A stretch of DNA of 64,000 nt, from NCBI RefSeq assembly GCF_038957035.1, contig NZ_CP152412.1, positions 620,001 through 684,000 on the forward strand. The letters are read 5' to 3'. The first letter of the stretch is position 1. The number at the start of each line of letters is the position of its first letter. This document shows positions 6,214 to 40,672 of this stretch, one piece after another. A program made the translations under genes and the position numbers. A model generated the notes under the pieces. The model did not search any database and was not told the origin of the DNA. It saw only the letters and a program-made list of their open reading frames with translations. Source of the DNA: Bradyrhizobium sp. B097. GTDB lineage: Bacteria; Pseudomonadota; Alphaproteobacteria; Rhizobiales; Xanthobacteraceae.

Positions 6214-6319
6214 CTGTCATCGCCCGGCTCGACCGGGCGATCCAGTATTCCAGAGACGCTGGTGCTTAAGCGCAGAAGCCGCGGCGTCCTGGATCACCCG
6301 CTTTCGCGGGTGATGACAA
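6214..6319. repeat. Short palindromic element with GIY-YIG-type arms, copy 1
   Basis: The left arm CTGTCATCGCCCGGCTCGAC... matches the arm of the GIY-YIG element at 32108 apart from about two differences in 44 bases. The right arm (to GGGTGATGACA) is its imperfect inverted partner. The centre is about 40 bp with no ORF. Each arm is itself a small hairpin. Confidence 0.85.
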
Positions 6320-6390: not shown

Positions 6391-6496
6391 CTGTCATCGC
6401 CCGGCTCGACCGGGCGATCCAGTATTCCAGAGGCGCTTGTGCTTGAGCGGAGAAGCCGCGGCGTACTGGATCGCCCGCTTTCGCGGGCGATGACAG
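6391..6496. repeat. Short palindromic element with GIY-YIG-type arms, copy 2
   Basis: 106 bp, the same length as copy 1 and nearly identical to it, starting 177 bp downstream. The bases after each copy also resemble each other, so a larger unit appears tandemly duplicated here. The second copy ends about 40 bp from the 3' end of the binding-protein gene. Confidence 0.85.
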
Positions 6497-23272: not shown

Positions 23273-23398
23273 CTGTCATCACCCGGCTCGACCGGGTGAT
23301 CCAGTATTCCAGAGGCGGCAGTGATTGAGCCGAGAGGACGCGGCGTACTGGATCGCCCGGTCCATGTGCGCAATTGCGCACAGGCTGGGCGATGACAG
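23273..23398. repeat. Short palindromic element with GIY-YIG-type arms, copy 3
   Basis: The left arm CTGTCATCACCCGGCTCGAC continues through CCAGTATTCCAGAGGCGGCAG, the same bases that flank the GIY-YIG ORF at 32151. The right arm ends GGGCGATGACAG. The interior is a few tens of bases, plus a small GTGCGCAATTGCGCAC palindrome within the right arm. No ORF. Confidence 0.85.
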
Positions 23399-30264: not shown

Positions 30265-30387
30265 CGTCGTCCTGGCGAAGGCCAGGACCCATAACCACCG
30301 GCCTTGGTTGTCGGATGGATTGTGGCCTCAACGTCGCGCAACAATTTGCATTTGGGGTAATGGGTCCTGGCTTTCGCCAGGACGACG
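30265..30387. repeat. Palindromic repeat, CGTCGTCCTGGCGAA family, copy 1
   Basis: CGTCGTCCTGGCGAAGGCCA and the inverted TGGCTTTCGCCAGGACGACG bracket about 75 bp. Further copies at 39695 (variant CCCGGCGCAGGCCGGG) and 40530. Confidence 0.85.
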
Positions 30388-31872: not shown

Positions 31873-31908
31873 AGGGGCCGTTGGTAGCAGATTCGAGCCA
31901 CTAGGAGG

Positions 31909-32023
31909 GTGTCGTCGCCCGGCTCGATGTGCGGACCGGGACTAGGTAACACCGTTCGGAGACATGGGTAACACATCGACGGCATGGAATGGCTTGGGAG
32001 GCCGACATGCCGGGCGACGACAG
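31909..32023. repeat. Degenerate CATCGCCCGG-type element with an IS-like insert
   Basis: The outer arms GTGTCGTCGCCCGG (31909) and CCGGGCGACGACAG (ending 32023) match the repeat family. Between them is GGTAACACCGTTCGGAGACA followed by TGGGTAACACA, which looks like the end region of a Bradyrhizobium insertion sequence (IS481-like, from memory). It carries no transposase. Confidence 0.55.
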
Positions 32024-32107
32024 TCTTTTTGTGGCCGGATCTGGTAACAACTCCTCTATGATCGCACCTAGTGATGTTGATGTCCGCAGATCGCGCGGCA
32101 TGATCAG

Positions 32108-32506
32108 GTGTCATCGCCCGGCTCGACCGGGCGATCCAGTATCCCAGAGGCGGCAGTTGGGCGCACGCAGCTTCTACGTCTACATCCTTGCCAGCCGCAT
32201 CGGCGGCACGCTGTATATCGGTGTGACAAATGACCTCATTCGCAGAGTCGGTGAGCACAAGCTGCAACTCATCGAGAGTTTCACTGAGAAATATGACGTG
32301 GTGAAACTCGTCTATTTCGAGCAATTCGATGACCCTGAGAACGCGATCAAGCGCGAGAAGCGGCTGAAGAAATGGCCGCGGGCATGGAAGATTTCCCTGA
32401 TTGAGAAGGACAATCCGGATTGGAACGATCTTTACCCGGAGATTGCGGGTGGCGGCGGATAGGCCTCTGGGATACTGGATCGCCCGGTCAAGCCGGGCGA
32501 TGACAC
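32108..32506. mobile_element. Candidate mobile element: GIY-YIG ORF between 44-bp inverted repeats
   Basis: Left arm 32108-32151 and right arm 32463-32506 are inverted copies that differ at one base of 44 (GGCTCGACC against GGCTTGACC). Each arm is itself a hairpin (ATCGCCCGG...CCGGGCGAT). The only content is one GIY-YIG ORF that begins six bases after the left arm and whose TAG stop abuts the right arm. The arms match those of the short elements at 6214, 6391 and 23273. Mobility is inferred. Confidence 0.65.
32157..32462 (+). CDS. GIY-YIG nuclease family protein
   Basis: 101 residues if TTG at 32157 is used; an in-frame ATG at 32100 would read through the left repeat arm. The core is complete: FYVYILASRIGGTLYIGVTN (6-25) covers the GIY and YIG strands, Arg29/Arg30 follow, and Glu67 in KREKRLKKW is the expected metal-binding Glu. 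The rest (LVYFEQFDDP, KKWPRAWKISLIEKDNPDW) is typical of the stand-alone UPF0213-like family. It probably cuts one DNA strand. It fills the space between two inverted repeats exactly. Confidence 0.88.
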   Translation: MGARSFYVYILASRIGGTLYIGVTNDLIRRVGEHKLQLIESFTEKYDVVKLVYFEQFDDPENAIKREKRLKKWPRAWKISLIEKDNPDWNDLYPEIAGGGG

Positions 32507-39694: not shown

Positions 39695-39816
39695 CGTCGT
39701 CCCGGCGCAGGCCGGGACCCATAACCACGAATGCCAGCGATGCGGCACGATGGGGCCGTAGCGCGTAATCCAACCGAGATTAGTGGTTATGGGTCCCCGC
39801 CTACGCCGGGACGACG
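39695..39816. repeat. Palindromic repeat, CGTCGTCCTGGCGAA family, copy 2 (CCCGGC variant)
   Basis: CGTCGTCCCGGCGCAGGCCG with GGGACCCATAACCAC, and inverted GTGGTTATGGGTCCCCGCCT to GGGACGACG. It sits between dapD and the HAD gene. Confidence 0.85.
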
Positions 39817-40529: not shown

Positions 40530-40672
40530 CGTCGTCCTGGCGAAAGCCAGGACCCATACCGCGTGATCCATCAAATGAAGCGCGGTGCCAATACCGCGCA
40601 ATGGTCGGTCACTACCCGTCTTTGCCAAATGATTGCCTGTGGTAATGGGTCCTGGCTTTCGCCAGGACGACG
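40530..40672. repeat. Palindromic repeat, CGTCGTCCTGGCGAA family, copy 3
   Basis: CGTCGTCCTGGCGAAAGCCA with GGACCCATA and inverted TGGCTTTCGCCAGGACGACG bracket about 95 bp. It lies just upstream of the HAD gene's start. Confidence 0.85.

Follow-up and report, generated by a model that had tools for sequence, protein, structure and literature searches.

A unit of 399 bp, composed of a small nuclease gene and two flanking repeats, lies at positions 32108-32506 of the window, the 64,000-nt stretch of the Bradyrhizobium sp. B097 genome (a single contig of 9.25 Mb) that was analysed. The unit is placed between rmuC and an MFS gene, both neighbours being named by Pfam, and has the following parts.

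32108-32151, plus strand: left arm, a CGTC-type REP with the tag TGTC at 32109-32112, from a family found in 58 places in the genome.
Parts of the left arm: stem 32113-32121, loop 32122-32126, stem 32127-32135, tail CCA 32136-32138, then GTATCCCAGAGGC.
32157-32462, plus strand: GIY-YIG nuclease gene, 101 aa, TTG start, TAG stop, recognised by its domain match and kept residues.
32463-32506, minus strand: right arm, an inverted copy of the left-arm REP, with its hairpin at 32476-32505.

Both arms follow the layout TGTC, ATCGCCCGG, CTCGA or CTTGA, CCGGGCGAT, and CCA with a 13-bp tail. The initial annotation had described the 44-nt arms as inverted copies of each other, each folding as a hairpin, with one gene packed tightly between them, and this description was borne out: the arms are 98% identical with one mismatch, their predicted folding energies are -17.1 and -21.2 kcal/mol (RNA parameters), the TTG at 32157 follows the left arm after five bases and the TAG at 32460-32462 abuts the right arm. 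Use of the TTG start is backed by an orthologue, L045, which has ATG at the same codon. The left flank of the unit (31897-32035), adjoining the left arm, is a scrambled stretch in which two half REPs surround a foreign piece of approximately 80 bp, with the MFS-side flank repeated after them in inverted orientation.

The encoded protein matches Pfam PF01541 (GIY-YIG) with an E-value of 2e-16, the enzyme class to which it had initially been assigned. Of 156 proteins (from 168 loci with a match, those with an internal stop in the match being left out), 99% have Y9, Y20, R30, H34 and E67 and 97% have N86. All six residues, which correspond to the GIY-YIG catalytic set, are kept in the window protein. 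The predicted structure has a mean pLDDT of 88, and its best Foldseek match, the sole one below 0.001, is the UPF0213 protein 1zg2 (E 7e-4). In addition, a profile search of the PDB matched 1zg2, 1ywl and UvrC; a PDB search with the single sequence gave no match, nor did NCBIfam and PADLOC scans. The single-domain UPF0213 proteins (1zg2, 1ywl) are thus the best profile and fold match and resemble the nuclease in fold and size, but the clade studied here adds the conserved signature LVYFE...REKxLKxWxRxWK...NPxWxDL and the REP arms. The next Foldseek matches (E 0.007-0.15) are structures of Slx1, a structure-selective nuclease of branched DNA that shares the GIY-YIG fold; their PDB titles name Slx1-Slx4, and Slx1 differs from the present nuclease in being eukaryotic and in working with Slx4. 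The dN/dS ratio is 0.03-0.12 in 11 pairs and 0.04 for the window gene against L040, indicating strong purifying selection on the nuclease gene. For this last pair (genomes G000 and G068) dS is 0.70 beside flanks that are 92-95% identical, so that either faster divergence of the gene at silent sites or an exchange of the gene seems to have occurred.

The outer TGTC, the 9-bp stem starting with AT, the 5-base loop and the CCA tail of the arms are those of CGTC-3 REPs. The CGTC REPs are one of two REP superfamilies and were described by Di Nocera and colleagues in 2013; according to the accessible part of that paper they carry the tag CGTC or TGTC and a CCA tail, occur as head-to-head pairs and include a form with a 9-bp stem and 5-base loop, their origin being left open (PMC3733652). 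Hosts named in the same part are A. lipoferum, S. meliloti, N. aromaticivorans, Neisseriae and Bradyrhizobium (PMC3733652). The repeats studied here resemble this superfamily, including Neisseria dRS3 and Rickettsia RPE-4 and RPE-6, in the tag, a stem of 8-9 bp, a loop of 4-5 bases, the CCA and the head-to-head pairing (PMC3733652). They differ in that a GIY-YIG gene is tied to them, whereas CGTC REPs are said, in the accessible part of the source, to be without a dedicated transposase (PMC3733652). Within the window, the 24-base core of the hairpin was matched 6 times with up to 3 mismatches allowed, more than by chance (no match in 100 shuffles), and REPs occur apart from the unit at the following places.

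6215-6318: head-to-head REP pair (non-autonomous dimer), with the arm REP type on the left; G068 also has a pair here.
6392-6495: a further head-to-head REP pair, at a distance of 177 bp; no counterpart was found at the orthologous place in G068.
23274-23303, plus strand: single REP of related type; a like REP lies within the aligned block of G068.
30265-30387: head-to-head pair of the CGTC type with an 8-bp stem; G068 has a pair of the other type at the same place.
39695-39816: head-to-head pair of the 8-bp-stem type; a partial remnant is present in G068.
40530-40672: head-to-head pair of the 8-bp-stem type.

The pair at 39.7 kb was considered as a clean empty site in G068 and rejected, as a partial REP is still there. 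Across the host genome the 31-base REP core is found in 58 places, against 0 for a reversed-pattern control. In 30 of these places (L010-L039, some being the two ends of one pair), 24 of 28 detected REPs have a head-to-head partner within 120 bp, and many copies in mostly head-to-head pairs are again as in CGTC-3 REPs. The arms, initially regarded as private to the nuclease gene, are therefore members of a dispersed REP family.

The clade of the window nuclease has one copy in the host genome, its next match being 57% identical. Nine matches to the nuclease protein are present in all, two of which are fragments of a single broken gene (L005/L008). This gene, L002 and L003 are likewise enclosed by inverted CGTC REPs, whose types differ from that of the window arms, and L004 and L007 appear by eye to lie between REP pairs with longer loops. 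No flanking REPs were seen at L009, and only a 15-bp inverted repeat at L006, a short match. Patterns for the other arm types match 36 and 210 places in the genome. The enzyme gene thus has cognate REPs on both sides and further copies of them elsewhere in the genome, which is the arrangement of a REPtron. A host hairpin-processing nuclease similar to Slx1, lying merely beside the REPs or managing them and taking no part in their spread, would suit the strong purifying selection, the Slx1 structures among the fold matches and the vertical inheritance at the rmuC site. Nevertheless, many genomes hold several diverged copies, which in the host genome have different arms, and presence is patchy (139 of 299 phylum genomes), so that this explanation is considered rather improbable.

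Nuclease matches (E ≤0.001) were found in 98 of 98 genomes of the genus (two weakly), 92 of 150 of the order and 139 of 299 of the phylum, and at least 589 genome stretches match one pattern of GIY-YIG proteins. Arms were assessed at one best locus per genome, a locus being positive if an inverted repeat (score ≥14) is common to its two 200-bp flanks or if each flank has an outward-tagged hairpin. In the order, where 69 of 91 other genomes with a match were examined and 2 loci near contig ends left out, 43 of 67 loci were positive and 24 failed. In the phylum outside the order (strong matches only; 38 of 49 genomes examined, 1 locus near a contig end left out) 25 of 37 were positive and 12 failed. 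By comparison, none of the 175 ORFs neighbouring these loci was positive, these controls being of 100 aa or more and unmatched in size to the nuclease gene. Positives came mostly from the inverted-repeat score (42 in the order and 23 in the phylum), and an earlier run on the order that used only this score found 42 of 67 loci positive, the corresponding figures being 0 of 104 for control ORFs and 10 of 200 for mispaired flanks. When strictly tagged hairpins on both sides were the sole requirement, 11 of 67 order and 11 of 37 phylum loci were positive; when one outward tag on either side sufficed, 32 of 67 and 27 of 37, respectively, were positive, as were 14 of 175 control ORFs. A count made blind to the tag (69 order loci, 38 phylum loci and 39 of 80 named loci) found a perfect hairpin on 171 of 292 gene sides against 62 of 448 control sides. 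Among the 171 hairpins, 98 have an outer TGTC or CGTC and 97 an inner CCA, the tag faces the gene in 29 and there is no such tag in 43; an outer GTC was found in 9 of the 62 control hairpins.

Named loci, chosen by protein alone (80 taken, 4 near contig ends left out), were positive in 64 of 76 cases, against 3 of 119 control ORFs. Positive results were obtained for 19 of 26 named loci whose title gives a group outside the alpha, beta and gamma classes; positive records include Omnitrophota, Marinimicrobia, Parcubacteria, Chloroflexi, Zixibacteria, Nitrospirae and Desulfobacteraceae, and Calditrichia and others among the named loci were negative in the arm test. Arms (score ≥14) were present at five of seven named loci from the plasmid collection, namely those of Azospirillum lipoferum 4B, Sinorhizobium meliloti, Neisseria gonorrhoeae, Novosphingobium aromaticivorans and Sphingobium, and absent from the two others, Rhizobium L51/94 and Planktothrix. 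The initial annotation had held that its idea would be refuted if GIY-YIG genes with such arms were absent from other genomes; they are present in more than 100 loci (43 and 25 in the order and phylum sets and 64 among the named loci, sets that share some genera), and this wide recurrence strongly supports its idea of a GIY-YIG counterpart of REP-associated transposases. REPs could also gather near dispensable small genes by chance or at hotspots. In favour of this, REPs are mostly intergenic, as stated in the accessible part of the defining paper (PMC3733652), and REP pairs have clearly been exchanged at the rmuC site. Such an origin is extremely improbable given the 0 of 175 and 3 of 119 positives among neighbouring ORFs (100 aa or more, size-unmatched).

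The type of REP differs between clades of the nuclease. Nucleases of higher protein identity have more similar arms (Mantel rho 0.26, a value reached by none of 999 permutations; 87 loci, uncorrected for kinship), and median arm similarity is 0.2 at 40-60% protein identity, 0.76 at 70-80% and 0.92 above 90%. Pairs above 70% are mostly same-site orthologues, so that common descent of the locus contributes and arms and gene may simply descend together. The alpha REP, which is the cognate type of the window nuclease, has a median of 19.5 in 40 genus genomes with the clade and of 8.5 in the 58 without it; these copy numbers are likewise uncorrected for descent, and clade members were taken among the matches listed, so that the 40 are a minimum, from which weaker, partial members may be missing. 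Alpha REPs are also more numerous relative to beta/gamma REPs where the gene has alpha arms (15 versus 17 genomes, p 7e-4), in 32 of the 40 genomes, 8 with mixed or unclear arms being left out; grouping was by a strict detector, which misses a truncated alpha arm such as that of G030. Outside the order, and again ignoring kinship, four or more copies of the CGTC-1 pattern were found in 25 of 49 genomes with a strong nuclease match against 27 of 212 without one. The other 24 strong-match genomes have at most three copies of this pattern, the only one searched, and the 27 genomes hold REPs without a strong nuclease match.

Within the genus the gene is at the same place, between rmuC and the MFS gene, in 38 loci, window included, and it is old at this site. 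These were counted among 41 loci of clade 1, of which L044, L059 and L066 are without flank markers; L077-L079, among the 38, are damaged. The orientation is opposite to that of the window in 36 of the 38 and the same in two, L001 and L074, the window locus being one of these. In-place flipping as proof of a recombinase was rejected, since the left flank in the window is scrambled and plain rearrangement may explain the orientation. The REPs beside the gene vary by genome, from single alpha arms to whole beta/gamma pairs. In G036, two copies of the clade are present approximately 4 kb apart in opposite orientation (L070), one with alpha arms and one between beta/gamma pairs.

The initial annotation had seen the 399 bp as a possible transposable unit. 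A fresh unit of this kind does not agree with the occupation of the same site in 38 loci, with arms that are general REPs and with an inversion lying in a locally scrambled stretch. Moreover, the comparison of strains that it had proposed yielded no clean, base-exact empty site or target duplication in G068 or at the dnaN/recF and sufB/sufC junctions, and unit copies at unrelated places together with a target duplication, by which an insertion sequence is recognised, were not found. A whole-unit transposon with private arms was accordingly rejected, the arms being dispersed REPs. A classical transposon, in which the arms would be 44-bp terminal inverted repeats and the GIY-YIG enzyme the transposase, would account for near-perfect arms exactly around one gene, but is very improbable in view of the dispersed REPs, the site common to 38 loci, the missing target duplication in the three comparisons and the many relatives that have two REP pairs in place of one arm per side. 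Spread by phage or plasmid as the main route was also rejected; the gene was found in 0 of 50,697 phage records and in 35 of 72,556 plasmid records, several of which are chromosome-sized.

At the junction of dnaN (identified by Pfam) and recF (by eye), 25 loci were compared. Five hold a full REP-gene-REP arrangement, one an internally deleted gene between its REPs, three a bare head-to-head pair of similar REP type, one a partial pair and one another pair, and the remainder hold remnants or unrelated inserts; the gene-bearing and bare REP pairs could not be aligned at single-base resolution. The sufB/sufC junction of A. lipoferum 4B is interrupted by the gene with a REP pair on either side. 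This module is absent from five relatives compared (A. ramasamyi, A. oryzae, B510, A. thermophilum and A. argentinense), and in Shinella PSBB067 this junction is occupied by a REP-gene-REP arrangement of a different kind. The module therefore comes and goes at conserved junctions, and the presence and absence at sufB/sufC and the deletion form at dnaN/recF fit slow mobility. GIY-YIG enzymes include known homing nucleases, and a homing-like element could be envisaged in which the nuclease cuts gene-free REP pairs and repair copies the gene between them, the REPs being landing sites and not products. The full, bare, partial and internally deleted forms at dnaN/recF would agree with this. Homing alone does not, however, explain the clade-specific REP types or the whole REP pair on each side of the gene at L050 and L338, and most elements look old and vertical; it is considered improbable.

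The unit is probably a REPtron-like module, in which a single-domain GIY-YIG gene is framed by its own CGTC-type REPs and the enzyme is predicted to act on these REPs. It is likely, to the same degree, that such a GIY-YIG REPtron is the CGTC counterpart of the RAYT/REP system with a non-homologous enzyme. The REPtrons of RAYT/TnpA-REP (GTAG REPs, REPINs) have, in the accessible parts of the sources, an enzyme gene flanked by REPs with its own REP type per enzyme and dispersed inverted REP pairs, and the REPtron has not been seen to transpose as a unit (PMC6006769, PMC3733652). They differ in the tag, which is GTAG and here [CT]GTC, and in the enzyme, the GIY-YIG class being unrelated to the HUH tyrosine enzymes, so that the chemistry must differ from that of RAYT. 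As the enzyme is GIY-YIG and not an HUH/Y1 tyrosine enzyme, the module works like a REPtron and is not a RAYT. The enzyme would recognise the tagged hairpin ([CT]GTC, stem, loop, stem, CCA), extruded or single-stranded, and would nick or cut there, which may let REP pairs spread or persist through break repair and copying. GIY-YIG enzymes hydrolyse DNA and, to our knowledge, form no covalent intermediate, so that joining would be left to host repair, unlike in RAYT. The gene itself would mostly be inherited in place and rarely move, and bare REP pairs would be the non-autonomous form of the module.

No link between GIY-YIG enzymes and REPs was found in the titles and beginnings of abstracts searched, preprints and most subscription journals being outside this scope. 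The accessible part of one source describes the REPtron for RAYT enzymes and makes no mention of GIY-YIG (PMC6006769), that of another lists GIY-YIG and RayT genes separately in one table (PMC9465073), and that of a third mentions none of GIY, CGTC and RAYT (PMC10969869). The present data place a specific candidate enzyme beside CGTC REPs in many phyla and suggest that the nuclease may be the partner enzyme so far lacking for one of the two major families of palindromic repeats in bacteria. If the enzyme acts on REPs, nuclease-driven spread would be a second, independently evolved route beside HUH-driven spread, and a function could be assigned to many small proteins labelled only 'GIY-YIG nuclease family protein'. 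A wider reading, put forward tentatively and with some doubt, is that the GIY-YIG nuclease drives mobile or amplifying repeats throughout bacteria by hairpin cutting and host-repair copying and accounts for the origin and upkeep of the whole CGTC superfamily, with sibling systems (a second GIY-YIG subfamily and DUF559) doing likewise on other palindromes.

The second GIY-YIG subfamily (ERRIKGWSRAKKxALIxGD) lies between inverted CCTGAGCTTGTCGAAGG palindromes at L205, L206, L208, L218 and L220, and may be a sibling system with another repeat family. A matching inverted repeat was found at 7 of 18 weak GIY-YIG loci (19 in all, one without a tblastn match; L207, among the 18, was placed by a spurious 11-residue match), and none of these is CGTC-tagged on both sides. 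At L252, a DUF559 gene (PF04480; 2994-3359) separates dnaN from recF, and its flanks contain a 17-bp inverted match within CCCTCTCCC...GGGAGAGGG repeats. Approximately nine more of the 25 dnaN/recF loci resemble L252 by eye, with no such ORF listed in L234 and L244. An annotated DUF559 gene also lies between sufB and sufC on a plasmid of Sphingomonas parapaucimobilis (L351, 927-1337), and this junction is perhaps a landing place shared by DUF559 and GIY-YIG modules, the latter in Azospirillum and Shinella.
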